From: Asterias amurensis | Taxonomy: Eukaryota; Echinodermata; Asteroidea; Forcipulatida; Asteriidae | DNA length: 64,000 bases | Reading direction: 5' to 3' | NCBI RefSeq assembly: GCF_032118995.1 | Contig: NC_092666.1 | Location: forward strand, 7,328,501 to 7,392,500 | Shown here: in pieces, positions 17,561 through 46,014 of the stretch | Layout of the letters: each line of letters begins with the position of its first letter | How positions within the stretch are numbered: the stretch's first letter is position 1 | The notes under the pieces: model-generated | The model's input: only the letters and a program-made list of their open reading frames with translations | Databases searched by the model: none | Told to the model about the DNA's origin: nothing | Position numbers and translations under genes: made by a program

Positions 17561-17563
17561 ATT

Positions 17564-18062: not shown

Positions 18063-18089
18063 TTATTCCTAGCTTCTTTTTTTTTATTG

Positions 18090-21545: not shown

Positions 21546-21560
21546 ACGTTCTGTTTAACT

Positions 21561-21716: not shown

Positions 21717-21860
21717 TTGCTAAAAGTGCTCTCGTGTGAATTAAGCTTTAAGTGTGATCTGTAAACTCGAATAATACTTCTTGTTTTACGAGTCGATATG
21801 GTGCTACCTAGGTGTCTGTAATTTTGGACATTCTCGTTTCTTGTTTCGTTTTTGTTTTAG

Positions 21861-22249: not shown

Positions 22250-22317
22250 GCAACCAAAAAGTTATCTTAATATTTTTTGTTCACAAATAAAAATAAACAA
22301 ATAAATAAATAAACAAT

Positions 22318-22650
22318 AGGAGAGAGAGAGAAAAAACTAAGCTAAATAAATTTGGAAATAATTTAACAACAAAGAAGATTGGATACAAAGCAAAATATTG
22401 TAGAAGAGGGTTTTGATTTCATTCTTTGTCAAAGACCACTTACTATAAAAGCATTCAGTCTTTCTGAATAATTTCCAGGGTCTCCATAATTTGTCTTGAA
22501 AGATTGAGAGATTGGGTCAATTCTAAATCGGTATAAACGTATTGCTCGCGTAAGAAGATCAATTACATTTTAAACAAATCTTGTTTAAAAGCTCACGACA
22601 CTACTGGCAATTATTCAAAATAATTGTAAAAAAAATAACAACTTACTTTA
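22318..22650. repeat. Direct repeat flanking a LINE, copy 1
   Basis: AGAGAGAGAGAAAAAACTAA then GCTAAATAAATTTGG and onward to GGCAATTATTCAAAATAATT matches 23612-23945 with scattered differences. A minus-strand LINE tail and ORF lie between the two copies. Confidence 0.8.
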
Positions 22651-22733
22651 CCAAAAAGTTATCTTAATAGTTTTTTTTGCAAAACAACACTGAATACAAA
22701 AAAAACAATAAAAACAAATAAAAACAAATAAAC

Positions 22734-22773
<40 letters not shown>

Positions 22774-23655
22774 GCTAATTCTTATATAGCGCATTTCATA
22801 ACTGAAAGAAATACCAATGCGCTTAACAAAAAACAAAAGGCAAACAATAAAGCAACCAATAACAAAAAATACGCTAACAAAATGCAAACGAAAGGATTAA
22901 ACTGAACAGAAGGCAATAGAAAACAAATGGGATTTGAGCAGAGTTTTGAATTGTTCCATGCTCTGTGGAGAGCGGATGTAGCCAGGAAGAGAGTTCCAAA
23001 GTTGGGGGGCGGCACTAGAGAAAGTCCTTGAACCGAAGGATTTAGTTCGAACGGGTGGTATGGTGAGAAGATGTGATGATGAACGGAGTGGACGGGCTGG
23101 TACATAAGGAATGATGAGGTCAGACAGGTAGCTAGGGCATGTTCTATGGATTGCTTTAAACGTAGTGATGAGGAGCTTGTATTGAATTCTAAAAGAGATG
23201 GGAAGCCAGTGTAATTCTTTCAGAACCGGAGTGATGTGTTTGCGCTTAGTAGAACGTGAGACCAGACGGGCAGCGGAATTCTGGATACGTTGAAGTTTAG
23301 CTATGTCTTTTTGGGGAATGTCAAACAAGAGAGAGCTGCAGTTATCCAGAAGGGAGCTTACAAATGAGTGGACCAGAATCTCTGTAGTTTGCTTATCGAG
23401 AAGATGGCGCACTTTGCCGATTCTATAAAGTGCGAATGAGGCTTTGCGACATACTATGTTCAGATGCTGGCGTAGAGATAGATGGCTGTCTAGTGTCACC
23501 CCAAGATCCCTCACTGCACCACTACATGAGACCCGGGTCTCACCAATGTGTACAGGAGGTAATTCTTGAGATCTCTTCTTCTGTGAAGTAACATGGAGAA
23601 TTTCCGTCAATATGAGAGAAGAGAGACAGAAAGAAAATAAGCTAAATAAATTTGG
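22734..23655 (-). mobile_element. CR1/L2-like LINE, C-terminal third of ORF2, truncated
   Basis: The 280-codon minus-strand frame (23739-22897) contains GAVRDLGVTLDSHLSLRQHL, ASFALYRIGKVRHLLDKQTT, KLQRIQNSAARLVSRSTKR, LKELHWLPISFRIQYKLL, RTKSFGSRTFSSAAPQLWNS and LPGYIRSPQSMEQFKTLLKS. This is the hallmark of the region after the RT domain in CR1/L2-type LINEs. The RT core itself is absent, so the copy is 5'-truncated. The 3' end is an (AAT)n tract at 22734-22773 on the plus strand. The C-terminal frame is intact, suggesting moderate age. Confidence 0.88.
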
Positions 23656-23945
23656 AACTAATTTAACAACAACGACCACTTGGATACAAAGTAAAATATT
23701 GTAGGAGAGGGTTTGATTTGATTCCTTATCAAAGACCACTTACTATAAAAGCATTTAGTCTGATTAATTTCCAGTCTCTCCATAATTTGTCTTGAATGAT
23801 TGAGAGATTGGGTCAATTCTAAATCAGTATAAATGTATTGCTCGCCTAAGAAAATCAATTACTTTTTAAACAAATCTTGGTTAAAAGCTCACGGCACTAC
23901 TGGCAATTATTCAAAATAATTGTAAACAAAAATAACAACTTACTT
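23612..23945. repeat. Direct repeat flanking a LINE, copy 2
   Basis: Matches 22318-22650 (shared blocks: CCACTTACTATAAAAGCATT, TTGAGAGATTGGGTCAATTC, GTATTGCTCGC). Confidence 0.8.
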
Positions 23946-24133
23946 GGTAACGAGCAATGAAGTTGTCTTGAATTCAAGCATCTGAAAGCACACAACTTGT
24001 GCGACAAGGGTGTTGTTTCCTCCATTATTCTCTCGCAACATTGACGACAAAGAGTTCGAATTTTCACTGGTTTGTTACATGTATGTTATGCGTATGTTGA
24101 TAAACACCTACCAAACGTGTCAAGCGCCTTTAA
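23881..24133. repeat. Truncated TTAA-type element
   Basis: TTAAAAGCTCACGGCACTAC TGGCAATTATTC at the left and CCAAACGTGTCAAGCGCCTTTAA at the right, with CACACAACTTGTGCGACAAG inside. The middle is deleted. A related left arm is at 22587-22640. Confidence 0.65.
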
Positions 24134-24328
24134 ACAAATTGTAACCAAACATGATATTATATTCAGAAGATCAATATTAAGTTTTAATAAAAAGCTTGTT
24201 CTTACTTACTTTTTTCCAAAATTGAAAAACTTATGGCTAGTTGACACAATAAGTGCACCATATCCTCAATATTATGGTTAAAAATGGTTCAATCTGGATA
24301 AAAACATCATTAACCATGAACCTTATTG

Positions 24329-24467
24329 CCGTTTCTCACAATGTTTTATACAATCAACCTCTCCCCATTACTCGTCACAAAGATAGGTTTTATGCCAACA
24401 ATTATTTTGAGCATGGAGGTAGGATAAGAAATTTTGAGTAATTACCAATAGTGTCCACTGCCTTAAA
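24329..24467. repeat. TTAA-type element, right arm only
   Basis: GCCGTTTCTCACAATGTTTT then CCCCATTACTCGTCAC and ACCAATAGTGTCCACTGCCT. The left arm is missing. Confidence 0.7.
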
Positions 24468-24654
24468 GCAGCTACATACTGGGACCAATTTCGTAGGCAT
24501 GCAGGAATACAAAAAAACGTAAGCACATAAAAGTATTGCTTAGCAGAAACAGATTGTTAGCAAAAGAAGTTTGCATATTGTGGCTATCGTGGTATTTATG
24601 AGATTGGGTCCAGATCGGATCTCAGGTTCCAGATCCACCAAAGTAAGGTGCGCG

Positions 24655-24835
24655 ACATGAGGATTTTTACAGTTACACACAGATGTGTTTAATAACCTTG
24701 TAAACTAAGTACTTGTAAAATCACAGGCATATTACTCGGTGAGATTGGAACCCACGACCCTTGAAATTCTAGAGCAGTGTCATACCAACTAAACCACATA
24801 GATTGCCCGGTGGCTACACTAGAGGCAGTTCGGAT
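24655..24835 (-). mobile_element. tRNA-derived SINE, relative of 1000-1240
   Basis: Minus strand: ATGTGGTTTAGTTGGTATGA (A box) and GGTCGTGGGTTCCAATCTCA (B box), preceded by CTCTAGTGTAGCCACCGGGC, which parallels CCTCTAGCCATCGGGC in the SINE at 1000-1240. The body extends to about 24655 with the CACACAGATGTGTTTAATAA segment. Confidence 0.6.
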
Positions 24836-26135
24836 ATTATGTTTTAGCAGCGGGTACTGCGAACGATTTATTAATGTTAAATTTGCATCGGGGATAAAGA
24901 ATATTCATTTTGTTTTTTACCCACACACACCGACGTGTGTTAGCACTGTACATATGCCTACTCAGTACTCGGTACTCATATTTATTAAACCATCCTTCCA
25001 CCATGGTTAATCTTAAAACGAAATGGTGCATTGCCAACTGCTCATGAAAGCTGTGGGACATCTTAAAGTTTGTCCCGTTGTTATACAGAGAATCTTGCAT
25101 CATCCATTTATTCCAATAACAAGTCAAGGAAATAGTTGACATTCCTAGTTCAATGAAGCATAACCCTGTATAGAAGTGGCGCTAGAAAATTTAGGTCAGG
25201 CCGCTATACGCCATAGGATACATGTCAATACCTTACATTATAGTAAATCAGTACTATCGAGAAACGATGTATAAAAAAGTGGAGCCGACTGGGGTTTACA
25301 CTGACTTGCCATTCGAAACAGCATTATTTCGACTGAAAGCTCCAGTCGATCACAAACGCAACATCAAACGAGGCTGATGTAAGATTTAAAGAGCTTTGAG
25401 CGGGGAGAGGCACAACAGCTAACAATAGCGAGAAAATAGCACCGTTTTCATTTCTGCGGACAGTTGGAAATTCGGTTGGGAAAACTGATACAAGCAAATC
25501 TGGTCGGATAACCATCATCCAACGTCTCGAGAGATGGGAGAAAAACCAGCATTTCCTCAGAGGACAGACAGAGAGTTTTAGTATCAGAGGAGGCATCCAA
25601 GAAAGAATTGGAGCTAAGAAGACCGTAGATGCCAAGATGGCTACAGGACACTTTCTGCAAACTGTCATCTTTTACGAGGTAATGAAACTGATGTGTCGGT
25701 GTAATTGTTATGTCGCCCGATACAGAACCCTATTTGATGCCTATACGCAAAGCAAAGGCGAATAAAAGTTGAGTTTTGTTCGGTGGGAGGACTTAGCGTT
25801 GGCTGCAAGAATGCAACAGCGCGGTAATAGTTGCCATACCTATAGACCTGGCGGCCATATACTTTCGTATTATTAAATATAGTGTACGGATTTACAGTAC
25901 AAAGAGTCCTATACAGATCTACCATTCCTAGTTCATCGAAGCATTACCAGGTGTTTTTTTTAAAGCAAAGGAGGCGCTAGAAGATTACAGTTCAGCCCGT
26001 TATACGCCAAATAGTCTAGTCTTTAAAGGCCCCCCAAAAATGACTTGACCTGTAGACGAAATTGCAACACCACATCGAAAAAGTAGAAAAAAGCAAGCAG
26101 GTAAAATATGCATTGTTTGTGAAATTTCAAGTTGC
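24836..26135. other. Unassigned region with a spaced direct repeat
   Basis: ATTCCTAGTTCAATGAAGCA with TGGCGCTAGAAAATT and CGCTATACGCC (25141-25213) recurs as ATTCCTAGTTCATCGAAGCA with AGGCGCTAGAAGATT and CGTTATACGCC (25922-26010). An open plus-strand frame of about 95 codons spans roughly 25532-25764, with 114 codons on the minus strand over 25324-25668. I recognise neither. The paired repeats may bound a small insertion. Confidence 0.4.
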
Positions 26136-26576
26136 CATTTTGCCTCTAGGTACATTAATGTATGTATGTATCCCTGGTAGTAGTCAAAGTTATATCATTT
26201 TCACTTCAAATTTTGAAATCAATTTTGAAACAACCCAAAACAATGTATCACGTAGAAAAAAAGGAACCACGAAACATAGTCATAACTGCATGAATTCAAA
26301 ATTGTCTGTTTTCGCCTGTTTTTCACTATGTGTATGTGTGTACACGCCCTGATAGTTCCACAATAATTGATATCTTGTCATATGTCTCTTGAAACAAGGT
26401 AACCCTCCCGAATAATGTATCAACCATATTCGAGGTATCACAAATGCAAATACATTTTAATTGAATTTGTACATTTAGAGTTACGCGCGTATTATGCACT
26501 AACAAGTAATGCAATAATGACTGCGTCTTTAAATTATGTTTGACGTCTTGGACTTAGCACCCTAGGTTGAAAATGT

Positions 26577-26944
26577 TAAAGGAACACGTTGCCTTGGATC
26601 GGTCGAGTTGGTCTTTGAAAAGCGTCCTGTAACCGCTTGTTATGGTTAGAAAGATGTTGTAAAAGTAGAATACAATGATCTACACAAATATGCCTCAAAA
26701 TTGAGTGGTTTTCGTTTTACCTCGTCGATAAACACGGTCGGCCATTTATGGGAGTCAAAACTTTGACTCCCATAAATAGTCGACCGAGTTAGTTCACGAC
26801 GTAAAATGAAAACCGTGCAATTTTGAGTGATACTTGTGTGGATCATTATATTCTACTTTTAAAACATCTTTCTAACCATATGCAAACGGTTTCAAACGCT
26901 GTTCATAGACCAACTCGTCCGATCTAAGGCAACGTGTTCCTTTA
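26577..26944. mobile_element. TTAA-flanked foldback MITE, AGGAACACG family, second copy
   Basis: TTAAAGGAACACGTTGCC to GGCAACGTGTTCCTTTAA with near-complete arm pairing through TTTATGGGAGTCAAAACTTT. Diverged from the copy at 4217. Confidence 0.85.
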
Positions 26945-27510
26945 ATGAGGTTCCAAACTTTACAAATTTTTTATCCCTAGCCCTGTCATGGGGGTTCCAG
27001 TATAATTTAATTAAATTTTTTTAATTAAGATTACGTGCGTAACAAGCCCCTACAAATGCTTGCAATAATGAGTGCACCTTTTTAAGGCCTGACCACACAA
27101 GGTCAGTAGATGTTAGGGAGGTTGACAGCCTTACCTAGTGGTGCCCAGTCTAAGGTGTCCAGCATAATTTAAAGCGCAAGTGACATAATTATTTCAATAA
27201 CATTTAGTGCATTGTAATACGTGACGTAATACTTATTAAACTAAGTTCAGTCCCAAAAAATACTTAAACCCCCATAACCCTGCTAGAGATAATACTTTTG
27301 CAACCCCTCTCTAATATCTTCCGTTCCAGTGGTGACCGGTCCAAGGCGACAGACATAAATTAAAGCAGTCTCGATTTCTTGTTAGGCATTAAACGCAAGT
27401 AACTTAAATTAAACAAATTTAGTTTCACTTTATTGTCACCTTAGATGCTTTATTTGGTAGGGTTAGTTTCAAGAGACAATTGCATGCAAATTCAGTGTGA
27501 CAGTGATATC

Positions 27511-27692
27511 AATAGACCGATCCAGAAGGCACCGCTCACGACGCACGTGTGATCAAGAACACGTGGGGCTCTCCAATGCTTTTCTGCAGAACTCTGCCGC
27601 GCGCACCAAGATACGCGCACACATGTCGGACCTTCGTTGCTTTGTGATTGGTCAATACGCAGTTGGGCGGAGCTTAGTGAATCGGTCTATTA
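27511..27692. mobile_element. Small MITE, AATAGACCGAT family
   Basis: AATAGACCGATCC at the left and GAATCGGTCTATT at the right form 13 bp inverted ends. The interior is GC-rich (CACGTGTGATCAAGAACACG, GGCGGAGCTTAG). About 180 bp. Confidence 0.7.
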
Positions 27693-27931
27693 AACAACTA
27701 TCAGGGCGTGTGCACACATAAACTAGTGGAAATAACAGGCGAAAACGGCAATTTGAACTTGTGCAAGTTTCCAATATTTCTAAACTTGTATACATTTTCT
27801 ATGCTTTGTATTTTTAAGTTTCAAGAAACGTTTGCATTAAAATTTGAGGTGAAAGTTTTCTTAATTGTACTACTATCTGGGCCTAAGAATGTTCAAATAG
27901 AATTGAAAATATTGGCCAAAAGTAGGCGTCC

Positions 27932-30138
27932 TTTTTTGGCTTGCATCGCTTAGATCCAAGCCACAGACACAAAACAAAAACACTAAACTGTAGCCAATGA
28001 TTTACGCTTTCCGTTGGTGTATAGTATGTGCGAATCAAATAATGTATTGGATATTATATGGGCCTCCGTGTAGTGTCATTATTTGGAGAAAAACTTACTT
28101 TTTTAGCCTTTTTCTCCCTTAGGGTGAGGGGTAGCTTTTTCGCCGCCCGTGTTGCGCAGATTTATGCGTCAGACACGAAACAATTATAAACGTGTAGCCC
28201 TTGAATAGGGCTTTCCTCTGGTTTATAGTATGTGTGGATCAACAATATTCTTCGGGTTCAAAATAAGCTTTGTACTTTGAATTTCTCTCCAGAACGGCTA
28301 ATATTGACGTCCGGAAAACACTCTTCGTGCCAACCATTCGGAGTAGGCTTGCTCAAACACTTTTTGAGCACCACGGAGTTGATGTAGGGTCTCATCAAGT
28401 TGATTATCGGATGTGGTATTATTCAAGCCACACACAGGTACCCTGATTATTTCTCTAGCCTACCAAGTTCAGGAATAATGGTCAAGTTCACAGACTCTGA
28501 GCGAACTTGTATGCCAACCATTTTCGGCACCCCGTTGCCTGGCGTTTTCAAACTTGACCAAAATGGCCGAAAATGGCTCCCTCCTTTGTCGGCTTGCATC
28601 GCTTAGATCCAAGCCACAGACACAAACCAAAGACATGAAACTGTAGCCCATGATTAGCGCGACCGTTGGTGTATAGTATGTGCGAATTGTATAATGTCTT
28701 GGATATGATATGGGCCTCCGTGTAGTGTCATTATTTGGAGAAAAACTTACTTTTTTTAGCCTTTTTCTCCCTTAGGGTGAGGGTTAGCTTTTTCGCCGCC
28801 CTTGTTGCGCAGATTTATGCGTCAGACACGAAACAATTATAAACGTGTAGCCCTTGAATAGGGCTTTCCTCTGGTGTATATTATGTGTGGATCAACAATA
28901 TTTTTCGGGTTCAAAATAACCTTTGTACTTTGAATTTCTCTCCAGAGTGGCTAATATTGACGTCCGGAAAACACTCTTCGTGCCAACCATTCGGAGTAGG
29001 CTTGCTCAAACGTTTTTTAGAGCACCACGGAGTTGATGGAGGGTCTCCGCAAGTTGATTATCGGATGCGGTATTATTCAAGCCAAACACAGGTACCCTGA
29101 TTATTTCTCTAGCCTACCAAGTTCAGGAACAATGGTCAAGTTCACAGACTCTGAGCGAACTTGTATGCCAACCATTTTCGGCACCCCGTTGCCTGGCATT
29201 TTCAAACTTGCCCAAAATGGCCGAAAATGGCTCCCTCTTTTGTCGGCTTGCATCGCTTAGATCCAAGCCACAGACACAAAACAAAAACATGAAACTGTAA
29301 CCCATGATTTACGCTTTCCGTTGGTGTATCGTATGTGCGAATCCAATAATGTATTGGATATGATATGGGCCTCCGTGTAGTGTCATTATTTGGAGAAAAA
29401 CTTACTTTTTTAGCCTTTTTCTCCCTTAGGGTGAGGGGTAGCTTTTTCGCCGCCCTTGTTGCGCAGATTTATGTGTCAGACACGAAACAATTATAAACGT
29501 GTAGCCCTTGAATGGGGCTTTCCTCTGGTTTATAGTATGTGTGGATCAACAATATTCTTTGGGTTCAAAATAAGCTTTGTACTTTGAATTTCTCTCCAGA
29601 ACGGCTAATATTGACGTCCGGAAAACACTCTTCGTGCCAACCATTCGGAGTAGGCTTGCTCAAACACTTTTTGAGCACCACGGAGTTGATGTAGGGTCTC
29701 ATCAAGTTGATTATCGGATGTGGTATTATTCAAGCCACACACAGGTACCCTGATTATTTCTCTAGCCTACCAAGTTCAGGAATAATGGTCAAGTTCACAG
29801 ACTCTGAGCGAACTTGTATGCCAACCATTTTCGGCACCCCGTTGCCTGGCGTTTTCAAACTTGACCAAAATGGCCGAAAATGGCTCCCTCCTTTGTCGGC
29901 TTGCATCGCTTAGATCCAAGCCACAGACACAAACCAAAAACATGAAACTGTAGCCCATGATTAGCGCTTTCCGTTGGTGTATAGTATGTGCGAATTCAAT
30001 AATGTCTTGGATACGATATGGACCTCCGTGTAGTGTCATTGTTTGAAGAAAAACGTACGTTTTGAGCCTTTTTCCCTTAGGGTAAGGAGTAGCTTTTTTG
30101 CTGCCCTTTTTGCGCAGGCCTTGAATAGGGATTTGGCA
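27932..30138. repeat. Tandem repeat, 653 bp period, about 3.3 copies
   Basis: The marker CTTGCATCGCTTAGATCC falls at 27940, 28593, 29247 and 29900, giving spacings of 653, 654 and 653. Units share TTTTTAGCCTTTTTCTCCC, GACGTCCGGAAAACACTC and TCACAGACTCTGAGCG. The fourth unit fades after about 30138. Open frames of 60-87 codons recur in each complete unit on both strands (for example 28400-28606 and 29707-29913), but no family was recognised. Confidence 0.93.
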
Positions 30139-30640
30139 AGGGGGTATTTTGGGTGCGTGGTTCTAGTCATGGTGCGAAAAAAAGAACTTTGCAAAAATCT
30201 GACGTAAAGTAAACGTCTTTGATTAATACTCGTTTTTATGCAAATCTTTAGTCTCGAGAATTTGGGAGCAATTCTGCCTAAAGTGAGCGCACTTTTGTGC
30301 TTTTGGAGGCTTATTAGTGAGTAATTATTTTTTTTACTTTCATTTCACGTCAGATTGTCTACTTTCCGGGGGGGAAATGCTAAAAAATCATCTTTTTTAG
30401 TAATTACAAATAGTGCCTTTAACAGCTTATGGAACTAGCCCATGGATGTATGACTTCTTACATCATTTCATAGCTGACCAATTATAACTCAGAAAGTAAA
30501 AGCCCGTGAAGATTCCATTGATCGCTACTGCTATAAGATCGTATTGATTAAGAAGAGCGCTTTTGTGATCCAATTTCTTTGTTATATTTGGTGTGGGGCT
30601 TGCATGCTCCTTGGCTAATTAGAATGTGAATAGCCCAGTT
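30139..30640. other. AT-rich sequence upstream of a candidate transcript
   Basis: No gene recognised. A fragment of a TTAA-type right end (TAATTACAAATAGTGCC) is at 30400-30418. Confidence 0.3.
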
Positions 30641-30802
30641 GTGAATAGTTCTTCTCAAGTAAGCACGTGATTGAGTGGAAATTTCTGCTACGAAACCTGC
30701 ACACAGCACGGTTGAGTGACTCGTCAATATGTCGCGGTTGGAAGTGCTTGTTGGTGGATCTGTGTGCTGTGCTGTTTTGCTTTGCTTTGCTGTGCTATGT
30801 TT
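30641..30802 (+). ncRNA. Candidate first exon of a spliced transcript
   Basis: A GTGAGT donor, close to consensus, lies at 30803-30808 immediately before the 12 bp minisatellite. Upstream sequence is free of repeats. The start of the exon is a guess. ATG codons at 30716 and 30729 run into the minisatellite only if this donor is not used. Candidate partner exons are at 36212 and 36608. Confidence 0.2.
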
Positions 30803-30813
30803 TGTGAGTACTG

Positions 30814-33800
30814 TTTCAGTTGTAGTTTCAGTTGTAGTTTCAGTTGTAGTTTCAGTTGTAGTTTCAGTTGTAGTTTCAGTTGTAGTTTCAGTTGTAGTTC
30901 CAGTTGTAGTTCCAGTTGTAGTCCCAGTTGTAGTCCCAGTTGTAGTCCCAGTTGTAGTCTCAGTTGTAGTCTCAGTTGTAGTCTCAGTTGTAGTCTCAGT
31001 TGTAGTCCCAGTTGTAGTCCCAGTTGTAGTCCCAGTTGTAGTCCCAGTTGTAGTCGCAGTTGTAGTCCCAGTTGTAGTCGCAGTTGTAGTCGCAGTTGTA
31101 GTCGCAGTTGTAGTCGCAGTTGTAGTCGCAGTTGTAGTCGCAGTTGTAGTCGCAGTTGTAGTCGCAGTTGTAGTCTCAGTTGTAGTCTCAGTTGTAGTCT
31201 CAGTTGTAGTCTCAGTTGTAGTCTCAGTTGTAGTCTCAGTTGTAGTCTCAGTTGTAGTCTCAGTTGTAGTCTCAGTTGTAGTCTCAGTTGTAGTCTCAGT
31301 TGTAGTCGCAGTTGTAGTCGCAGTTGTAGTCTCAGTTGTAGTCTCAGTTGTAGTCTCAGTTGTAGTCTCAGTTGTAGTCTCAGTTGTAGTCTCAGTTGTA
31401 GTCTCAGTTGTAGTCTCAGTTGTAGTCTCAGTTGTAGTCTCAGTTGTAGTCTCAGTTGTAGTCTCAGTTGTAGTCTCAGTTGTAGTCTCAGTTGTAGTCT
31501 CAGTTGTAGTCTCAGTTGTAGTCTCAGTTGTAGTCTCAGTTGTAGTCTCAGTTGTAGTCTCAGTTGTAGTCTCAGTTGTAGTCGCAGTTGTAGTCGCAGT
31601 TGTAGTCGCAGTTGTAGTCGCAGTTGTAGTCGCAGTTGTAGTCGCAGTTGTAGTCGCAGTTGTAGTCGCAGTTGTAGTCGCAGTTGTAGTCGCAGTTGTA
31701 GTCGCAGTTGTAGTCGCAGTTGTAGTCGCAGTTGTAGTCGCAGTTGTAGTCGCAGTTGTAGTCGCAGTTGTAGTCTCAGTTGTAGTCTCAGTTGTAGTCT
31801 CAGTTGTAGTCTCAGTTGTAGTCTCAGTTGTAGTCTCAGTTGTAGTCGCAGTTGTAGTCGCAGTTGTAGTCGCAGTTGTAGTCTCAGTTGTAGTCTCAGT
31901 TGTAGTCTCAGTTGTAGTCGCAGTTGTAGTCGCAGTTGTAGTCGCAGTTGTAGTCGCAGTTGTAGTCTCAGTTGTAGTCTCAGTTGTAGTCTCAGTTGTA
32001 GTCTCAGTTGTAGTCTCAGTTGTAGTCTCAGTTGTAGTCTCAGTTGTAGTCTCAGTTGTAGTCTCAGTTGTAGTCTCAGTTGTAGTCTCAGTTGTAGTCT
32101 CAGTTGTAGTCTCAGTTGTAGTCTCAGTTGTAGTCTCAGTTGTAGTCTCAGTTGTAGTCTCAGTTGTAGTCTCAGTTGTAGTCTCAGTTGTAGTCTCAGT
32201 TGTAGTCTCAGTTGTAGTCTCAGTTGTAGTCTCAGTTGTAGTCGCAGTTGTAGTCGCAGTTGTAGTCTCAGTTGTAGTCTCAGTTGTAGTCGCAGTTGTA
32301 GTCGCAGTTGTAGTCGCAGTTGTAGTCGCAGTTGTAGTCGCAGTTGTAGTCGCAGTTGTAGTCTCAGTTGTAGTCTCAGTTGTAGTCTCAGTTGTAGTCT
32401 CAGTTGTAGTCTCAGTTGTAGTCTCAGTTGTAGTCTCAGTTGTAGTCTCAGTTGTAGTCGCAGTTGTAGTCTCAGTTGTAGTCGCAGTTGTAGTCTCAGT
32501 TGTAGTCGCAGTTGTAGTCGCAGTTGTAGTCGCAGTTGTAGTCGCAGTTGTAGTCGCAGTTGTAGTCGCAGTTGTAGTCGCAGTTGTAGTCGCAGTTGTA
32601 GTCGCAGTTGTAGTCGCAGTTGTAGTCGCAGTTGTAGTCGCAGTTGTAGTCGCAGTTGTAGTCGCAGTTGTAGTCGCAGTTGTAGTCTCAGTTGTAGTCT
32701 CAGTTGTAGTCTCAGTTGTAGTCTCAGTTGTAGTCTCAGTTGTAGTCTCAGTTGTAGTCTCAGTTGTAGTCTCAGTTGTAGTCTCAGTTGTAGTCTCAGT
32801 TGTAGTCTCAGTTGTAGTCGCAGTTGTAGTCTCAGTTGTAGTCGCAGTTGTAGTCGCAGTTGTAGTCGCAGTTGTAGTCGCAGTTGTAGTCGCAGTTGTA
32901 GTCGCAGTTGTAGTCGCAGTTGTAGTCGCAGTTGTAGTCGCAGTTGTAGTCGCAGTTGTAGTCGCAGTTGTAGTCGCAGTTGTAGTCGCAGTTGTAGTCG
33001 CAGTTGTAGTCGCAGTTGTAGTCGCAGTTGTAGTCGCAGTTGTAGTCGCAGTTGTAGTCGCAGTTGTAGTCGCAGTTGTAGTCTCAGTTGTAGTCTCAGT
33101 TGTAGTCTCAGTTGTAGTCTCAGTTGTAGTCTCAGTTGTAGTCTCAGTTGTAGTCGCAGTTGTAGTCGCAGTTGTAGTCGCAGTTGTAGTCGCAGTTGTA
33201 GTCTCAGTTGTAGTCGCAGTTGTAGTCGCAGTTGTAGTCGCAGTTGTAGTCGCAGTTGTAGTCGCAGTTGTAGTCGCAGTTGTAGTCTCAGTTGTAGTCT
33301 CAGTTGTAGTCTCAGTTGTAGTCTCAGTTGTAGTCTCAGTTGTAGTCTCAGTTGTAGTCTCAGTTGTAGTCTCAGTTGTAGTCTCAGTTGTAGTCTCAGT
33401 TGTAGTCTCAGTTGTAGTCTCAGTTGTAGTCTCAGTTGTAGTCTCAGTTGTAGTCGCAGTTGTAGTCGCAGTTGTAGTCGCAGTTGTAGTCGCAGTTGTA
33501 GTCGCAGTTGTAGTCGCAGTTGTAGTCGCAGTTGTAGTCGCAGTTGTAGTCGCAGTTGTAGTCGCAGTTGTAGTCGCAGTTGTAGTCGCAGTTGTAGTCG
33601 CAGTTGTAGTCGCAGTTGTAGTCGCAGTTGTAGTCTCAGTTGTAGTCTCAGTTGTAGTCTCAGTTGTAGTCTCAGTTGTAGTCTCAGTTGTAGTCTCAGT
33701 TGTAGTCTCAGTTGTAGTCTCAGTTGTAGTCTCAGTTGTAGTCTCAGTTGTAGTCTCAGTTGTAGTCTCAGTTGTAGTCTCAGTTGTAGTCTCAGTTGTA

Positions 33801-35240
33801 GTCTCAGTTGTAGTCGCAGTTGTAGTCGCAGTTGTAGTCGCAGTTGTAGTCGCAGTTGTAGTCGCAGTTGTAGTCGCAGTTGTAGTCGCAGTTGTAGTCG
33901 CAGTTGTAGTCTCAGTTGTAGTCGCAGTTGTAGTCGCAGTTGTAGTCTCAGTTGTAGTCTCAGTTGTAGTCGCAGTTGTAGTCGCAGTTGTAGTCGCAGT
34001 TGTAGTCGCAGTTGTAGTCGCAGTTGTAGTCTCAGTTGTAGTCTCAGTTGTAGTCTCAGTTGTAGTCTCAGTTGTAGTCTCAGTTGTAGTCTCAGTTGTA
34101 GTCTCAGTTGTAGTCTCAGTTGTAGTCTCAGTTGTAGTCTCAGTTGTAGTCTCAGTTGTAGTCTCAGTTGTAGTCTCAGTTGTAGTCGCAGTTGTAGTCG
34201 CAGTTGTAGTCGCAGTTGTAGTCGCAGTTGTAGTCGCAGTTGTAGTCGCAGTTGTAGTCGCAGTTGTAGTCGCAGTTGTAGTCGCAGTTGTAGTCGCAGT
34301 TGTAGTCGCAGTTGTAGTCGCAGTTGTAGTCGCAGTTGTAGTCGCAGTTGTAGTCGCAGTTGTAGTCGCAGTTGTAGTCGCAGTTGTAGTCGCAGTTGTA
34401 GTCGCAGTTGTAGTCTCAGTTGTAGTCTCAGTTGTAGTCTCAGTTGTAGTCTCAGTTGTAGTCTCAGTTGTAGTCTCAGTTGTAGTCTCAGTTGTAGTCT
34501 CAGTTGTAGTCTCAGTTGTAGTCGCAGTTGTAGTCGCAGTTGTAGTCGCAGTTGTAGTCGCAGTTGTAGTCGCAGTTGTAGTCGCAGTTGTAGTCGCAGT
34601 TGTAGTCGCAGTTGTAGTCGCAGTTGTAGTCGCAGTTGTAGTCGCAGTTGTAGTCGCAGTTGTAGTCGCAGTTGTAGTCGCAGTTGTAGTCGCAGTTGTA
34701 GTCGCAGTTGTAGTCGCAGTTGTAGTCGCAGTTGTAGTCGCAGTTGTAGTCGCAGTTGTAGTCGCAGTTGTAGTCGCAGTTGTAGTCGCAGTTGTAGTCG
34801 CAGTTGTAGTCGCAGTTGTAGTCGCAGTTGTAGTCGCAGTTGTAGTCGCAGTTGTAGTCGCAGTTGTAGTCGCAGTTGTAGTCGCAGTTGTAGTCGCAGT
34901 TGTAGTCGCAGTTGTAGTCGCAGTTGTAGTCGCAGTTGTAGTCGCAGTTGTAGTCGCAGTTGTAGTCGCAGTTGTAGTCGCAGTTGTAGTCGCAGTTGTA
35001 GTCGCAGTTGTAGTCGCAGTTGTAGTCGCAGTTGTAGTCGCAGTTGTAGTCGCAGTTGTAGTCGCAGTTGTAGTCGCAGTTGTAGTCGCAGTTGTAGTCG
35101 CAGTTGTAGTCGCAGTTGTAGTCGCAGTTGTAGTCGCAGTTGTAGTCGCAGTTGTAGTCGCAGTTGTAGTCGCAGTTGTAGTCGCAGTTGTAGTCGCAGT
35201 TGTAGTCGCAGTTGTAGTCGCAGTTGTAGTCGCAGTTGTA
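30814..35240. repeat. 12 bp minisatellite, about 369 units, 4.4 kb
   Basis: The unit is CAGTTGTAG plus a variable triplet-like end: TTT then TTC in the first units, then TCC, TCT and mostly TCT or TCG further on. Variants come in runs of 1-20 units, and the last about 60 units (34514-35240) are uniform with TCG. No insertions break the 12 bp register, so four-residue repeats stay open for about 1500 codons in several frames (C-S-R-S and V-V-V-A on plus, L-Q-L-R on minus). These frames are a consequence of the period being a multiple of three; I do not call a gene. Confidence 0.97.
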
Positions 35241-35254
35241 GCCGCATCGCAGAG

Positions 35255-35350
35255 AGTGCCTGACTACGAGCCACATCCCAGAGGGTGCCTGACTACGAGC
35301 CACATCCCAGAGGGTGCCTGACTACAAGCCACATCCCAGAGGGTGCCTGC
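35255..35350. repeat. 29 bp tandem repeat, block 1
   Basis: About 3.3 units of GTGCCTGACTACGAGCCACA plus TCCCAGAGG. It follows the minisatellite directly, through CCGCATCGCAGAGA. Confidence 0.9.
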
Positions 35351-35358
35351 CTAAAGGA

Positions 35359-35581
35359 CATCATCCCATGTGATTGAAGCACATCAAACATTGGTAGATG
35401 GCTAGAAAATGATCTTGTTAATTCAAGGGGTCTCGGTTTAAGACTTGGTCCCTCTTAGAAAACTTTTTGGTTTAGACCCTCAAATGGTGTTGGAAGTCCC
35501 ATCCCCTACATGGTGTCTTTCCGTTGATGTATGCCTTTAAAAGTGCTTGCCCTAACCAAGTTTTTTTGTGTGGATCTTTTT
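35359..35581. repeat. Spacer, copy 1 of a duplicated 29 bp-block-plus-spacer unit
   Basis: CATCATCCCATGTGATTGAA onward (GTAGATGGCTAGAAAATGAT, TCGGTTTAAGACTTGGTCCC) recurs at 35802. Confidence 0.85.
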
Positions 35582-35806
35582 AGTGCCTGACTACGAGCCA
35601 CATCCCAGAGAGTGCCTGACTACGAGCCACATCCCAGAGGGTGCCTGAATACGAGCCACATCCCAGAGGGTGCCTGACTACGAGCCACATCCCAGAGGGT
35701 GCCTGACTACGAGCCACATCCCAGAGGGTGCCTGACTACGAGCCACATCCCAGAGGGTGCCTGACTACGAGCCACATCCCAGAGGGTGCCTGACTACGAG
35801 CCATCA
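35582..35806. repeat. 29 bp tandem repeat, block 2
   Basis: Eight units with only one or two substitutions, more than twice as many as block 1. Confidence 0.92.
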
Positions 35807-35990
35807 TCCCATGTGATTGAAGCACATCAAACATTGGTAGATGGCTAGAAAATTATCTTGTTATTTAAAGGGCTCTCGGTTTAACACTTGGTCCCTCGTA
35901 GAAAACATGTTGGTTTAGACCCCCAAATGGTGTTGGAAGTTCCATCCCCTACAAGGTTCCTTTTCTTCGATAAATGCCTTTAAAAGTGCT
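35802..35990. repeat. Spacer, copy 2
   Basis: Matches 35359-35560 with about 10 percent visible differences (ATTATCTTGTTATTTAAAGG for ATGATCTTGTTAATTCAAGG). The larger unit therefore has a period near 443 bp. Confidence 0.8.
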
Positions 35991-36041
35991 TTAAAAGTCA
36001 GTTTAAGCATTTTTTTAAGCAGTAGTCCTGTGATGATCATC

Positions 36042-36152
36042 TGGGACCAATTTTATAGAGCTGTTTAGGCAGAAATATTGCTAAAACAGTTCTCTATTAT
36101 TTTATGCTTGGATCCTTTTTTTGCCTATAAGCATCTCTATGAAATTTGCCCC
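36042..36152. mobile_element. Short MITE, GGGACCAATTTTAT family
   Basis: CTGGGACCAATTTTATAGAG then CTGTTTAGGCA at the left. TGCCTATAAGCATCTCTATG AAATTTGCCCC at the right is the imperfect reverse complement. Similar GGGACCAATTT or GGGCCCAATTT ends occur at 24480 and in the 194 bp repeats at 39.7-41.0 kb. Confidence 0.7.
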
Positions 36153-36211
36153 TGATGATCTATGTCTTTATATGGTTTGTACTTATGTAGTACATTGTAA
36201 TTTTCTTTCAG

Positions 36212-36343
36212 ATGATTGTGACGACTGCTTTCCAGCCATCCCGTCAACCTGGACCATGAAGATGTGACAGCACAGTACAGAGAGAGAGAGATACATCATG
36301 GCTTGAGGCAGCTACATACCAGGGTCCCAAATGGAATATGAAG
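36212..36343 (+). ncRNA. Candidate exon of a spliced transcript
   Basis: Acceptor TTTTCTTTCAG and donor GTAAGA enclose 132 bp with stops in all forward frames (for example CATGAAGATGTGACAG). If real it is non-coding or untranslated. Confidence 0.3.
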
Positions 36344-36607
36344 GTAAGATGTCTTTTAAGTAAAGCTTGACTTTCAAGTTTAGAAGTCAATTAAAGTGCA
36401 TAAAATTGACATTTCTTGGGTCTCATAATTAAAGTTAGTCCCATTTACCTTGCACGAATACTGTTAAAGGGCCAGGAGCGTCACTGAGTGAGGGATATGC
36501 ATGCTTTATAAAAAGCCATTATTGTTACTATTATGCACAAATCTTCGATCTTTAAATCCAAGTCGCAATCTAACTGGTTTATTTTTCGGTTTTTGATCAT
36601 ATTACAG

Positions 36608-36935
36608 GACTAACGCAGTCGAACAACTTTGAGTTGGACACATCAAGATGCTGAGCCACCTTATGCCGTACCATTTAAAGTCAGCATAGCATACATCATC
36701 ATCACCACCTCATCTAAGGCGTCATGACAACAGATGAACACATTGTCAACAGAATGGAACCCAAGTACACGAATGAGACGAAGAGACAGACCAAGTTGGC
36801 GTTAGATGGATGACATCAAGCAATAAGCACAAGAAAGATCAAGGTGGAATGGTGATGAAGAAGCCTTCCTTCTGCAGTATGGAGCCACATAGGCTAGATA
36901 TTATGTCACTTACAATAAAAAAAAAAGATTTGTGA
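36608..36935 (+). ncRNA. Candidate terminal exon with polyadenylation signal, partly LINE-like
   Basis: Acceptor CATATTACAG, then about 310 bp ending with AATAAA at 36914-36919 followed by an A run. The translated stretch RRRDRPSWR, stop, MDDIKQ, stop, AQERSRWNGDEEAF near 36778-36885 resembles the C-terminal tail of some LINE ORFs. The region may simply be a LINE 3' end with its own AATAAA. Confidence 0.3.
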
Positions 36936-36989
36936 AGATTTCACATTTCGTTGGCCTGTTTAATTCATTCTTGGAAGTATATGTGCTTT

Positions 36990-37240
36990 TAGAAATATTG
37001 TCAACATACTTGAAATGAGGTACTTCATTACAAGTATGTAGACAGAATACATAATAAACTTGTATCGAGGTACTATACAAGTTCATGTATTCACATACAA
37101 AAATTGCATGTTTGTAATGAGGTACTTCATTACAATCATGTAATTATAACATGCTTGCAATAAAGTACCTTATTGCAAGTATGTAAAAGCTTCATGTGCG
37201 TAATGAAGTACCGCATTACAACCATGAAACAAGTTAAGTT
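36990..37240. repeat. Cluster of palindromes with GGTACTTCATTAC cores
   Basis: Four related inverted repeats: AATGAGGTACTTCATTACAA (37013), TTGTATCGAGGTACTATACA A (37062), GTAATGAGGTACTTCATTAC (37114), and the perfect CTTGCAATAAAGTACCTTAT TGCAAG-like arm at 37153-37178. A fifth, GTAATGAAGTACCGCATTAC, is at 37200. Spacing is 40-55 bp. Confidence 0.8.
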
Positions 37241-37517
37241 AATTTGTAATGCAGTTTGCTAATTACAAAATACGAAACAACATAATTTTATTTGTAGTAA
37301 ATTCATAACAAATAAAAAGAGTGTTTATTAGACATTAAGTTTTGTATTGTTACTACTTAATTTGAATAATGAATCAAATATAAAATGTAACTTTTGTAAT
37401 GTGTCATTCTGTCTATCAATTATTTATTAGTCTAATTGTTTACATGGTATTTGTTCTGGGGTAGCTTACATGGTGGCCACCATACTTTGTTGTTGGTAAC
37501 TCTGAATAAAGCTTTTA

Positions 37518-38995
37518 ATGTGAAAGGTCATGCCATTGTGTCGTGTGAAAATGGAGGTTGGTTAAGAGTACTCATTAAACGAGTTTATTTAAGTACAAGG
37601 GTCATGACAATGTCATAGGGTACTCATTAACAAGGTTATTTAATTACAAAGGGAATGGCAATGTCATAGAGTACTCATTAACGAGGTTATTTAATTACAA
37701 AGGTTATGACAATGTCATAGAGTACTCATTAACGAGGTTAATTAATTACAAAGGGAATGACAATGTCACAGAGTACTCATTAACGAGGTTATTTAATTAC
37801 AAAGGTCATGACAATGTCATATAGTACTCATTAAAGAGGTGATTTAATTACAAAGGTATTGACAATGTCATAGGGTACTCATTAACGAGGTAAATTAATA
37901 ACAAAGGTGATGACAATGTCATAGAATACTCATTAACAAGGTTAATTAATTACAAAGGGAATGACAATGTCATAGAGTACTCATTAACGAGGTTATATAA
38001 TTACAAAGGTGATGACAATGTCATAGAGAACTCATTAACGAGGTTAAATAATTACAAAGGGAACGGCAATGTCATAGAGTACTCACCAATGAGATGATTT
38101 AATTACAAAGGTATTGACAATGTCATAGAGTACTCATTAACGAGGTTATATTAATTACAAAGGTGATGACAATGTCATAGAGTACTCATTAACGAGGTTA
38201 ATTAATTACAAAGGGAATGGCAATGTCATAGAGTACTCACCAATGAGATGATTCAATTACAAAGGTATTGACAATGTCATAGAGTACTCATTAACGAGGT
38301 TATATTAATTACAAAGGTGATGACAATGTCATAGAGAACTCATTAACGAGGTTAATTAATTACAAAGGGAATGGCAATGTCATAGAGTACTCACCAATGA
38401 GATGATTTAATTACAAAGGTATTGACAATGTCATAGGGTACTCATTAACGAGGTTATATTAATTACAAAGGGAATGACAATGTCATAGAGTACTCATTAA
38501 CGAGGTTAATTAATTACAAAGGGAATGACAATGTCATAGAGTACTCATTAACGAGGTTATTTAATTACAAAGGGAATGACAATGTCATAGAGTACTCATT
38601 AACGAGGTTAATTAATTACAAAGGGAATGACATTGTCATAGAGTACTCATTAACGAGGTGATTAAACTACAAAGGTGTTGACAATGTCATAGGGTACTCA
38701 TTAACGAGGTTATTTAGTTACACAGCTATTGACATTGTTTAGCTGTATAGAGTACTCATTAACAAGGTTGAATAATTTCAAAGGTCATGACATTATCTGT
38801 ATAGAGTACTCTTAACAAGGTTTTATAATTACAAAGGTCATGACATTGTCTTAGCTGTATAGAGTACTCATTGACAAGGTTTTATAATTACAAAGGTCAT
38901 GACATTGTCTTAGCTGTATAGAGTACTCATTAACAAGAATTAATAATTACAAAGGTCATGGCATTGTCTTAGCTGAATAGAGTACTCATGAACAA
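37518..38995. repeat. AT-rich tandem repeat, about 51 bp period, about 27 units
   Basis: The unit is GACAATGTCATAGAGTACTC followed by ATTAACGAGGTTAATTAATT ACAAAGGGAAT. Each unit holds the inverted pair TGACAATGTCA. From about 38735 the units lengthen to near 60 bp (CATTGTCTTAGCTGTATAGA). Higher-order patterns occur: the CACCAATGAGATGATT variant recurs at about 38085, 38238 and 38392, spacing about 154 bp, i.e. three units. Confidence 0.93.
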
Positions 38996-39669
38996 GATTT
39001 TATATTATAATAATAATATAAAATAATAGTGATAAATAATTTTCAGAGAGGGGTAACATTACAAATAAGCAATTGTTGTAGTGGTTACACACTCAAATTT
39101 ATTACGATCCCTTTTGTGGGGTGGGAGATGACAACCTTCACGTGGTCCACCCTGTTGTTAACTAATTGTCATCAAACAATACAGCTGTATATACGTATGT
39201 ATATATAGCTCTATGCATTTAACCAGTAACCCCATCAGGCTCGATGAACTTTCAAGAATGTTCATGATCAGTCAATGACCATGCCTAAAACAGTTCATAA
39301 CATGTTCATTAGAGCAGATCATGAACCAAGTTCAAGAACTGTTTATCTGTTCAATTGATGGACGTTTGATAGGGGAACAAAAGGGAAGCGACGAGTTCTT
39401 TATTGGCCTTTTAAAACCAGCAGGGTCATTGCCAGGTGATAAAGGCCCGAGCAGATGGCGAGGGCCTTTATTGCACGGCAACATACGTTTAAGAACAAGT
39501 CACTACTCTTTTATTCCCATTAATAGTAATGCCCTTTTGTTAAAAAGCGCGCTTAGAAATAGATATGTGTGCGCACTTACATTACGCCCTGTTACTAAAA
39601 GCTATGAATTGCGTGTTTGGCATGAGTATATTGGCGTACGTGCAAGCCTGACACGCGGAAGCCAGCCGG

Positions 39670-40990
39670 TTATAAACAGCTCCAGCTGGGCCCAATTTCA
39701 TGGCTCTACTTACAGTAAGCAGAGAATCAGTGCTTACCGAAGCAGGGAATTCTGTGTATACGGCAAGCGTACTTCACAGGTTAGCGGAAAATTTTGGCTT
39801 TTGCGCGTGCCTACTCCACATTTCTAGGCATTCTGCGCTGAAAAGGCTAGCAATGAAATCCGGTTATAAACGGCTCCAGCTGGGCCCAATTTCATGGCAC
39901 TGCTTACGGTAGGCAGAGAATCAGCGCTTACGGTAGCAGGGAATTCTGTGTATACGGCAAGCGTATTTCACTGGTTAGCGGCGAATTTTGGCTTTTGCGC
40001 ATGACGTTTCTAGGCATTCTACGCTTGAAAGGCTAGCACATAAAACCGGTTATAAACAGCTCCAGCTGGGCCCAATTTTATGGCACTGCTTACAGTAAGC
40101 AGAGAATCAGCGCTCTCCGAAGCAGGGAATTCTGTGTATACAGCAAGCATATTTCACGGGTTAGCGGCAAATTTTGGCTTTTGTGCGTGCCTACTCCATG
40201 TTTCTAGGCATTCTACGCTTTAAAGGCTAGCACATAAAGCCGGTTATAAACAGCTCCAGCTGGGCCCAATTTCATGGCACTGCTTACGATAAGCAGAGAA
40301 TCAGCGCTTACGGAAGCAGGGAATTCTGTGTATACAGCAAGCATATTTCACGGGTTAGCGGCAAATTTTGGCTTTTGTGCGTGCCTACTCCATGTTTCTA
40401 GGCATTCTACGCTTTAAAGGCTAGCACAGAAAGCTGGTTATAAACAGCTCCAGCTGGGCCCAATTTCATGGCACTGCTTACGATAAGCAGAGAATCAGCG
40501 CTTACGGAAGCAGGGAATTCTGTGTATACGGCAAGCGTATTTCACAAGTTAGCGGCGTATTTTGGCTTTTGCACATGCCTACTCCACGTTTCTAAGCATT
40601 CTACGCTTAAAAGCCTACCTCAGAAATTTGGCGCTTGCACGTAAGCGGGGAATCGTGATGGTAACTCCACGTTTCTATGCATTATCTGCTTAAAAGGCTA
40701 GCACAGAAAGCTGGTTATAAACAGCTCCAGCTGGGCCCAATATCATGGCTCTGCTTGCCGTAAGCAAAGAATCAGCGCTTACGGAAGCAGTGAATTCTGT
40801 GTATATGGCAAGTGTATTTCACGGGCTTGCGACGAATTTTGGCTTTTGCGCAAGCCTACTCCACGCTTCTAGGCATTCTACGCTTAAAAGCCTACCTCAG
40901 AAATTTGGCGCTTGCACGTAAGCGGGGAATCGTGATGGTAAGCGCGGAATTCGGCGGTAAGCAGAGCCATAAAATTGGGCCCTGGTCATT
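39670..40990. repeat. Tandem repeat, about 194 bp period, six units, with inverted outer ends
   Basis: CAGCTCCAGCTGGGCCCAAT falls at about 39677, 39871, 40057, 40251, 40445 and 40722. Each unit contains two facing segments (CTTACGGTAAGCAGAGAATC and GCTTACGG-AAGCAGGGAATT) and CATTCTACGCTTAAAAGGCT. The last interval, 277 bp, holds an extra partial duplication. The array ends at 40955-40981 with AGCAGAGCCATAAAATTGGG CCC, the inverse of the left-end GGGCCCAATTTCATGGCTCT. The 168-codon frame at 39321-39827 crosses into it and is not supported. Confidence 0.9.
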
Positions 40991-41950
40991 CTCAACCATT
41001 TAAACACCTCAGGTGTAGCGCTCTCAACCAATAGGAGTAGCGAAACTGTCTTGGGTATTTATGAATGGATTTTTATAAATTTCATGAATTTTCAGTAAAA
41101 CTTCCGTCTAAGCTTTCTTAGTTTGCAGTTTATTAACTTTAATGCATTATCATAACTCGACTGTGTATCAGCTCCCTGGCATTATGTTATTTTTAGTATC
41201 CGTATGTCATTGCTGGTAATGCTCATTAACATAATTATCAATCACTTTACTTTGAAGTGTTTTCTTTTGCCATTAGGTCTAAGCTATAGTAAGTTTTAAA
41301 ATGTTCAATTTGTGTTGCCAGGTTTTATTCATTCAAACTTACATTTATCTTCATGAAATCAAGTACAAACAATTGGTTTTGTAAAGGATAACCAATAAAC
41401 AAAGCTGTTTATTGAGGCAGAGAAAAATAGAGCTTAACATTCAGTGTACAAGTATGGCTTTTGAGTAAAATAAATGCATTGGTCATGTGAAACAGGAAAC
41501 AACTGTGTGATGTAGACTGATCATTGTAAAAAATAGTAGAAATACCCCTGCCCTGTAAAACAACCGTGCATTGTTTTGTCAAAATGTCAAAGGAAAAGGG
41601 GCCTGTGTGAATTATGATTTGTTAACCTATAAAAAATCCGGAAAAACCTTAAGTTATTTGGTTTGTATCCCACTCCAGTGAATTTGTCTTTGTTCACCCC
41701 AAAATCATTTACAATTTGCCCAGTCAGTAATTTCCTTTGATATGATTTGAAACTTTGCACGGTGGAAGTTTTATTAAAGAGATAGTACACAGTAAAACAT
41801 CTGTTTTGAGAAGTGTTTGTTTTAAAGACCGTTGGTTAACGATTCTTTATGCCAGAACTTCAAACATAGAATTAATCTGCAACAAAACATTTCAAAAAGT
41901 GATTGCGTTTTTAAAAACCTGTGTAATTTGTGTCAACATGGAAAGAATTT
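40991..41950. other. AT-rich sequence, no recognised gene
   Basis: No repeat family, exon or long frame that I can support. Confidence 0.3.
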
Positions 41951-41954
41951 TCCC

Positions 41955-43125
41955 TTTATATAGGAATACAAGCTGGAAAGCGTTACCGCTGTAACGATTC
42001 TTATGTTCAATTTGTGAGAGGGGTTCAAAATTGTTACACCTTTTTCATCCCCATAATGTACAAAAAAGATGAAATGTTTCTCAAAATGCGATTATCTAAA
42101 GCTGTTTACTAAGCTTCACCGCAGTTATAAGTTTTAACTGACCCATTATTTGAAAGTTGAATATTATCTATAGGAATACAATCTGGGAGGCAATAAAGGC
42201 ACTGTACACGTTTGGTAATTGTCAAAGACCAGTATTCTCACTTGGTGTATCCCATCATAAGCATAAAATAACAAGCCTGTCATAATTTGGGCTCAATTGG
42301 CCATCGAAGTTGCGAGAAAACATTTGGTGTGCTTGCAGCTAGGAATAAAATACTTCTAGCTAGAAGTCTTTTAATATTTTAGTTAGAAATAACCCCTTTC
42401 TCAAAAATTACGTTACTTCGGAGGGAGTCGTTTCCCAGAATGTTTTATACCATGAACAACCGCTCTCCAATGCTCGTTACCAAGTCAGTTTTTAAGTTAA
42501 TTGTTTTGAGTAATTACCAAACGTGTACCTTCCCTTTAACGCTTCTCATTTTAATTATTTGGGAGAATAAAAATAGGAAGGATAATCCCAATAGGAATAT
42601 AATCTGAGAAGCATTACCGCGGTAATGCGTGTTATGATCGGGGAGGGGGGGGGGGGGGGGGTCAAGCGTTTGTAACAGGAAGCGAAGTATAATTTTTTTA
42701 TCTAAAACTTGCACTGTAGGGCCTACTATCCAACTGCTATAGGCCCTACTCCTCACCGCATGTATAAAGTTTTATGGCATTCCAGAGTTCAATATGGTCC
42801 AACTGGAAAGAATTTAGTCAAATTAGGATACAATAGGGATACAATCCGAGAAGCGTTACTGCGGTAATGCTTTTATATTCAATTTGGGGGGGGGGGGGGA
42901 GGGGAGGGAATAAAAAGTGGTACCCCGTTTTCCATACCCGGACGTAAATGTACTTCTTAAACGATGCATTGTACTATCCAAAGCTGTCGTACTTCTTACC
43001 ACTTAGATTTTTTTCCACTGGTTTTTCAGAGTTTCATTGTCATAATGGGAAGAATAGTTCCTATAGAAACACAATCTGAGAAGCATTACCGCAGTGACGC
43101 TTCTTACATTAAATTTTGGGGTCGC
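41955..43125. repeat. Spaced repeats with a TTACCGCGGTAA palindrome
   Basis: ATAGGAATACAA-type starts followed by GAGAAGCATTACCGCGGTAA TGC occur near 41960, 42170 (truncated), 42593, 42836 and 43065. The spacing is about 210-245 bp except where the TTAA-type element at 42194-42539 is inserted. The 42610-42627 copy is a perfect 18 bp palindrome. G runs (42640-42661, 42884-42906) follow two of the copies. Confidence 0.75.
42194..42539. repeat. TTAA-type palindromic element within the spaced repeats
   Basis: AATAAAGGCACTGTACACGT to CCAAACGTGTACCTTCCCTTTAA. Internal blocks are more diverged than in the GGCAGTGG copies. Confidence 0.8.
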
Positions 43126-43127
43126 CA

Positions 43128-43514
43128 GAAGCCATTGGACACTATTGGTAATTGTCAAAGACCAGTCTTCCCACTTGCTGTATCTCAACATAATATGCAT
43201 ATAATAACAAACCTGTGAAAATTTGGGCTCGATTGGTCGTCGGAGTTGCGAGATAACTATGAAAGAAAAAAACACCCTTGTCACGCAAAATTGTGTGCTT
43301 TCAGATGCTTGATTTCGGGACCTCAAATTCTAAACTTGAGGTCTCGAAATCAAATTCGTGGAAAATTACTTCTTTCTCGAAAACTACCCACTTCAGAGGG
43401 AGCCGTTTCCCACAATCTTTTATACTACGAACCTCTCCCCATTACTCATTACCAAGTAAGGTTTTATGCTAATAATTATTTTGAGTAATTACCAATAGTG
43501 TCCACTGCCTTTAA
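43128..43514. repeat. TTAA-type palindromic element, full copy
   Basis: AGAAGCCATTGGACACTATT to AGTGTCCACTGCCTTTAA, with the central facing GGGACCTCAAATTC and GAGGTCTCGAAATC. Confidence 0.85.
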
Positions 43515-44245
43515 GCTATTTTTCTGTGCTTAGCAAGTGTTTGTGCTTCCAGGCATAATGAAATTAGGCCTACGTTCCAGTCTATTTCCTGGCAGGCAAT
43601 ACATTCCACTGCTCATATTATGAAAAATGCTGTATGATAACGACCAAATAAAATAATAGAAGGCTGGATTTCTGCACAAAAATATTGGAAAAAGTCATAC
43701 AAATTGAACTTTGATAGCGCCCTCTATTGACAGGCTAATTTCATTATGATTCAAATTATATCGCCAATTGTTCTTCACCAATGTTCTCCAATAATTTCAC
43801 GAAATCGCCTTAAAAATTACAGATTATTCTTCATCCATCAACCAGTTAATTCTCGCCCGTGCGTGCAGTATAGAAGTGAGTAGGACTTTTCTTCTTTTGT
43901 TATCTCTAAAGATGGGATATTGGTATTTTTTAAGTATGGGGCTCGTGATCAGTGTGATGATCAATCATTGATGGTTTGCTGCGTGCATGGGAAAGTTTGT
44001 TATTTACCAGTTACGATATGGTAGTGTTTTACCGTAGTTACAGAAGTTCCGGAGTACCCAATCATCAAGTGGTTGATTATTAAGGTTACTAGTGCTGTGT
44101 TTCTTCTCTTTGGGCCTAATAATAATCCAGTTGATCTCATTGTTTTGTGTACATGCTGTATTACCTATAAAAAATTTTTTAATAATAATTGACACTAGGC
44201 CTAGGCCTGTTTCGTTGTCTACGGATATGTGATGTGTGCTTTGTT
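43515..44245. other. Region upstream of a candidate gene start
   Basis: Unique sequence without exons. It would hold the promoter of the plus-strand gene starting at 44324, but no promoter element can be named with confidence. Confidence 0.3.
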
Positions 44246-44323
44246 TACCCACGCCTGCTTCTTCTATTCTGTGGAAGAGGTAAAGACATCACCAATCAGT
44301 GGTAAAGCTCGTTCATTTCAACA

Positions 44324-46010: not shown

Positions 46011-46014
46011 CGGG

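Follow-up and report, generated by a model that had tools for sequence, protein, structure and literature searches.

The window (the whole stretch of DNA that was analysed, 64,000 nucleotides from Asterias amurensis, without any N) contains at 30817-35232 a minisatellite with a unit of 12 bp. By direct parse it is composed of 368 consecutive units, each made of the invariant core CAGTTGTAGT followed by two further bases (NN), so that unit positions 1-10 are the same throughout and variation is confined to positions 11-12. The distance from one CAGTTGTAG to the next is 12 in 368 of 368 cases, and TRF calls the array at 30817-35246 with period 12, 369.2 copies, 98% matches and 0% indels, confirming the perfect register of about 369 units that was given in the preliminary description. 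Identity at period 12 spans 30813-35241, and the GTTTCAG at its left edge (30813-30819, plus strand) may have been the seed of the first unit. The core does not occur elsewhere in the window on either strand, and no unit contains a single-base run longer than three. The last two bases are CG in 199 units, CT in 153, CC in 8, TT in 6 and TC in 2. With its 12-bp unit and 368 units the array falls within the definition of minisatellites given for human loci (tandem units of 9-100 bp, PMC2599865), and its five unit types provide the internal variant map, produced by base substitutions, that also characterizes them.

Several other tandem repeats are present. A 29-bp array, recognized by TRF and alignment, occupies 35240-35353, its first diverged unit abutting the 12-bp array, and a second one lies at 35583-35811; in fact, in the region 35240-35991 the 29-bp array is duplicated together with its spacer (35240-35548 and 35683-35991, 91% alike, no gaps). 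About 3.4 tandem copies of a unit of about 652 bp are found at 27913-30117, ending 0.7 kb left of the 12-bp array; they are 94-95% alike, with 88% for the last partial copy, and their longest ORF has no Pfam match. A 51-bp minisatellite called by TRF at 37565-38913 (about 26 copies, 84% matches, 3% indels), with self-matches extending to 39004, has inverted repeats beside it at 36999-37229, and a 194-bp array is called by TRF at 39664-40617. At 6968-10057 and 60672-63745 there are complex tandem repeats that are rich in G, with G runs and a strong GC skew. Comparison of the left flank (30118-30816) with three stretches to the right of the array gave no convincing homology, the score being reached in 14, 28 and 4 of 200 shuffles.

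Pieces of mobile elements are also present. Pfam models above cut-off at 11198-14927 (minus strand) include reverse transcriptase, RNase H and a zinc knuckle, with integrase and aspartyl protease below it, and a reverse transcriptase model is matched at 45964-47349 (plus strand); we read the former as a Ty3/Gypsy-like and the latter as a non-LTR-like element. Matches were obtained for five of the 17 ORFs scanned against Pfam and for twelve there were none; Rfam gave no match at gathering scores. Two stretches are exon-like by eye, 36212-36343 with acceptor and donor signals and 36608-36927 with an acceptor; we take the second to resemble the decayed 3' end of a retrotransposon with an A-rich tail. 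A direct repeat, with copies at 1-10296 and 53704-64000 that lie 53.7 kb apart and touch both window edges, is 99.5% identical, its 10,314 aligned columns containing 14 substitutions and 16 gaps. Either the segment was duplicated in tandem recently, or the assembly contains a false or haplotypic duplication. Altogether, the DNA that hosts the array looks eukaryotic and rich in transposon pieces and tandem repeats.

Variant map and comparison with known minisatellites

The map of unit types along the array, as obtained by direct parse, is polar and blocky. The left end (units 1-21, 30817-31068) is rich in variants and holds all five types (TT, TC, CC, CT and CG); in the middle (units 22-308, 31069-34512) blocks of CT and CG units, some of them of a single unit, alternate with 37 switches; the right end (34513-35232) is composed of 60 identical CG units. 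The switch test was restricted to units 22-308, excluding units 1-21 and the last 60, and there the type switches between T and G 37 times over 286 steps, whereas 2000 shuffles gave 143 switches on average and never fewer than 114. The types can be joined by single steps, TT-TC-CC-CT and CC-CG, and four substitutions would therefore be sufficient to generate them. A satellite with higher-order repeats was considered and rejected: in units 22-308 a periodic multi-unit pattern was not found, no lag of 1-150 units performing better than 3000 run-shuffled maps (global p 0.302).

Similar organizations have been described in human minisatellites. According to the account of it in PMC2599865, MSY1 (DYF155S1) is a Y-chromosome minisatellite with 48-118 units and an AT-rich 25-bp unit for which a hairpin is predicted; its variants form blocks, units of a different length are said there never to have been observed, and length mutants alter blocks by 1-3 units. 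Like MSY1, the array displays base-substitution variants of one unit distributed in blocks (37 switches against a mean of 143) and has no units of other length (all 368 spacings being 12). Unlike MSY1, its unit is of 12 bp, its units are 368 and no fold is predicted, the minimum free energy being 0 for four 96-nt strands, composed of CG-type and CT-type units on both strands. The same account interprets the strict unit length of MSY1 as favouring a role of the hairpin, and this argument, transferred by analogy, would count against a neutral reading here, where the unit has no predicted fold.

TRACT, as presented in a preprint (PMC13131567), is a 30-bp VNTR in an intron of human CACNA1C, studied in populations, and its growth is there proposed to proceed via perfect tracts of one variant that substitutions break later. 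The array is similar in being several kb long with one-base variants, whereas TRACT is intronic, has a longer unit and is known from population data, the array being known from one sequence. As in D7S21, studied by MVR-PCR, two similar unit types can be read as a map; in the description of D7S21 in PMC2363947, however, the types are called randomly interspersed, and those of the array are blocky (37 switches versus 143). The array matches MSY1 and TRACT in structure and differs from MSY1 in that no fold is predicted for its strands. A literature text search for the letters of the unit, with four strings, found no paper.

Growth and register of the array

We consider it very probable that the array is a young neutral minisatellite that has grown in register by gaining a few units at a time, beside an older 29-bp array; its reading as something special is not supported. 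In a short left-hand seed of TTT-type units, unit positions 11-12 would have undergone a few substitutions, and growth would then have taken place mostly by gaining and losing a few units at a time, in register, through slippage or gene conversion between misaligned copies, spreading two variants as blocks and leaving at the right a homogeneous tract that is probably the youngest. Repeat-to-repeat copying would pair whole units, as a consequence of which the array length would stay a multiple of 12 and, 12 being a multiple of 3, open frames would remain open as a by-product. The strict period had been attributed tentatively to chance plus young age or to a mechanism favouring whole-unit changes, and both suggestions fit an array that we suppose to be young; whole-unit changes are also described for other minisatellites (PMC2599865; PMC2674676), although in section 1.2 of the latter complete-unit duplication is presented as an assumption that seems valid in general but from which some loci may depart.

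With ten of 12 positions invariant in 368 units, the array is as homogeneous in sequence as it is in length, and the absence of odd-length units is no more surprising than the absence of substitutions at ten positions. Neighbouring repeats give an idea of how many indels could be expected. Taken together, two pairs of 652-bp copies that have one copy in common display 67 substitutions and 7 gaps, and the 309-bp pair at 35240-35548 and 35683-35991 has 27 substitutions and no gap; supposing that the five unit types arose through about four substitutions, the ratio of the 652-bp copies would predict about 0.4 indels in the array. The copies 53.7 kb apart, with 14 substitutions and 16 gaps, count against the neutral reading, since at their ratio some indels would be expected and zero would be less likely; these gaps would be irrelevant to the array if they are mostly slips in long runs, its units having no run longer than three.

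A toy model, in which 347 units were grown from a seed of two by gaining blocks in tandem (1500 runs per setting), illustrates such growth and does not prove it. With mean steps of 1.4-2.0 units and no loss, 25-55 switches are obtained in 21-35% of runs, and with loss in up to 38%, after discarding the runs in which one type disappeared (865-1193 of 1500 retained at loss 0.3, and 130-461 of 1500 at loss 0.45). On a coarser grid, single-unit gains lead to a median of one switch and mean steps of at least 5 units to medians of at least 121. The number of switches and the longest run (40-90) are jointly reproduced in at most 8.9% of runs at any setting, which counts against the neutral reading.

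The composition of the units is also informative. TG and CA are the deamination products of CpG; none of the 368 units ends in either of them, and the 199 CG units retain their CpG. The flanks, by contrast, are depleted in CpG (observed/expected 0.61) and enriched in TpG and CpA (1.21). This contrast fits a young or an unmethylated array.

Open reading frames and splice signals

Four of the six frames are open over the whole length of the array, measuring 1571, 1515, 1533 and 1522 aa from stop to stop. The previously noted open frames of about 1500 codons on both strands are therefore real in these four cases (1515-1571 aa); openness does not extend to a fifth frame (DYNC, minus strand), in which TT and CT units place a stop, so that only runs of CG units are open, for 269 aa at the right end and for 83 and 79 aa elsewhere in the array. 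Such openness is expected of a 12-bp period: when 20,000 12-mers sampled from the flanks (window 15001-30000 and 36001-53000) were repeated in tandem, at least four of six frames were open in 18,444, and the same occurred in 19,287 of 20,000 shuffles of the array unit. Among the four frames open throughout, the G/T change at position 12 is silent in LQLR and replaces the residue in the other three (R/L, A/S and A/E). At positions 1-10 even silent sites are invariant, which argues for overall homogeneity and not for purifying selection on a protein.

No ATG occurs inside the array on either strand. Of the four frames open throughout, three have a single ATG just beyond the array, at 30797 (plus), 30729 (plus) and 35247 (minus), with ATG-to-stop lengths of 1488, 1530 and 1507 codons respectively; none was found for the minus-strand TTTA/TTTE frame, whose tail at 30551-30817 (89 aa), the only non-repeat tail compared with Pfam, matched no model. 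When 248 aa of the TTTA frame were searched against PDB sequences, three distinct sequences were matched, all named circumsporozoite protein (best E 3.5e-6); we read them as low-complexity matches of four-residue repeats. The long open frames and the perfect spacing can thus be explained without function, and the proposed selection on the reading frame is not supported by these observations.

A GTGAGT donor followed by acceptor-like ends had also been attributed to each unit. The hexamer is actually single, it lies outside the array, just to its left (30804-30809, plus strand), and is judged a chance match, GTGAGT occurring 19 times in the window (13 on the plus and 6 on the minus strand) versus about 31 expected by chance on both strands of 64 kb, by our own arithmetic assuming equal base use. 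Neither GTAAG nor GTGAG is found inside the array, and its units have no pyrimidine tract, the longest pyrimidine run being 4 on the plus and 2 on the minus strand. Splice sites were consequently rejected, and the splicing idea is weak.

Competing explanations and significance

The array could be a coding repeat, its minus strand specifying a Thr-rich (TTTA/TTTE) mucin-like stalk, or another frame being translated, with selection keeping the frame. The minus-strand frame of 1571 aa and the three frames that start just beyond the array are in agreement with this, and so is the use of the same core elsewhere. In a search of viral and bacterial or other prokaryote contigs, from which records of the window's own genome were possibly left out, three consecutive core units turned up at eight loci, four of them in viral contigs and four in bacterial genome contigs; at six (L001-L006) the units read as Thr-rich TTTx stretches within ORFs of 416-1657 aa. 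However, L001-L003 are seemingly near-identical and hence not independent, L007 has only a 96-aa ORF and is not clearly coding, and L008 is 377 bases long and open in two frames. The repeats of L001-L006, from bacterial or phage-like contigs, share with the array the ten-base core, at least three units and the strand that reads TTTx, and differ from it in having few units, inside long ORFs; they are apparently convergent coding repeats and not relatives of the locus. Moreover, the TTTA/TTTE frame has neither an ATG nor a Pfam match in its tail, its G/T variants exchange A for E while silent positions are invariant, and open frames are what most 12-mers would produce. A coding repeat is therefore unlikely, and we give it a very slim chance. 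An assembly or polishing artefact, in which consensus building created the length or uniformity of the array, receives some support from the near-identical 10.3-kb repeat at both window ends (99.5%; 14 substitutions, 16 gaps), maybe a false duplication, but a non-random block map with single-unit blocks is unlike the result that collapse or polishing would be expected to give, and we regard such an artefact as extremely improbable.

A further possibility concerns the core. The confinement of all variation to two adjacent positions, with P 0.0085 for four independent random substitutions and 0.049 for three, is a residual oddity, noticed after the fact, which variants already in the seed could explain. 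Alternatively, a sequence-specific constraint or a templated process may hold CAGTTGTAGT while positions 11-12 are free, for example a putative core-binding protein (CAGTTG in the core presumably fits the E-box and MYB-type consensus), or repair or copying that tolerates change only at those two positions. The 0 changes in 3,680 core bases, compared with five states at the other two positions, and the low P for four substitutions falling at random point in this direction; on the other hand, the substitution events are few and reconstructed, their number was set after seeing the data, the variants were possibly present in the seed, and no relatives were found for comparison. To such a process we assign a small probability; if it were true, the array would bring together over 360 copies of a single candidate binding site.

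The neutral reading remains the one that we prefer, and the array looks like a probably ordinary minisatellite, presumably of recent expansion. Frames of about 1500 codons and perfect register in an array whose period is a multiple of three need no selection, which is a caution for gene prediction in repeat-rich genomes, and the clean map of two main variants would serve, given sequenced alleles, as a marker of repeat turnover.
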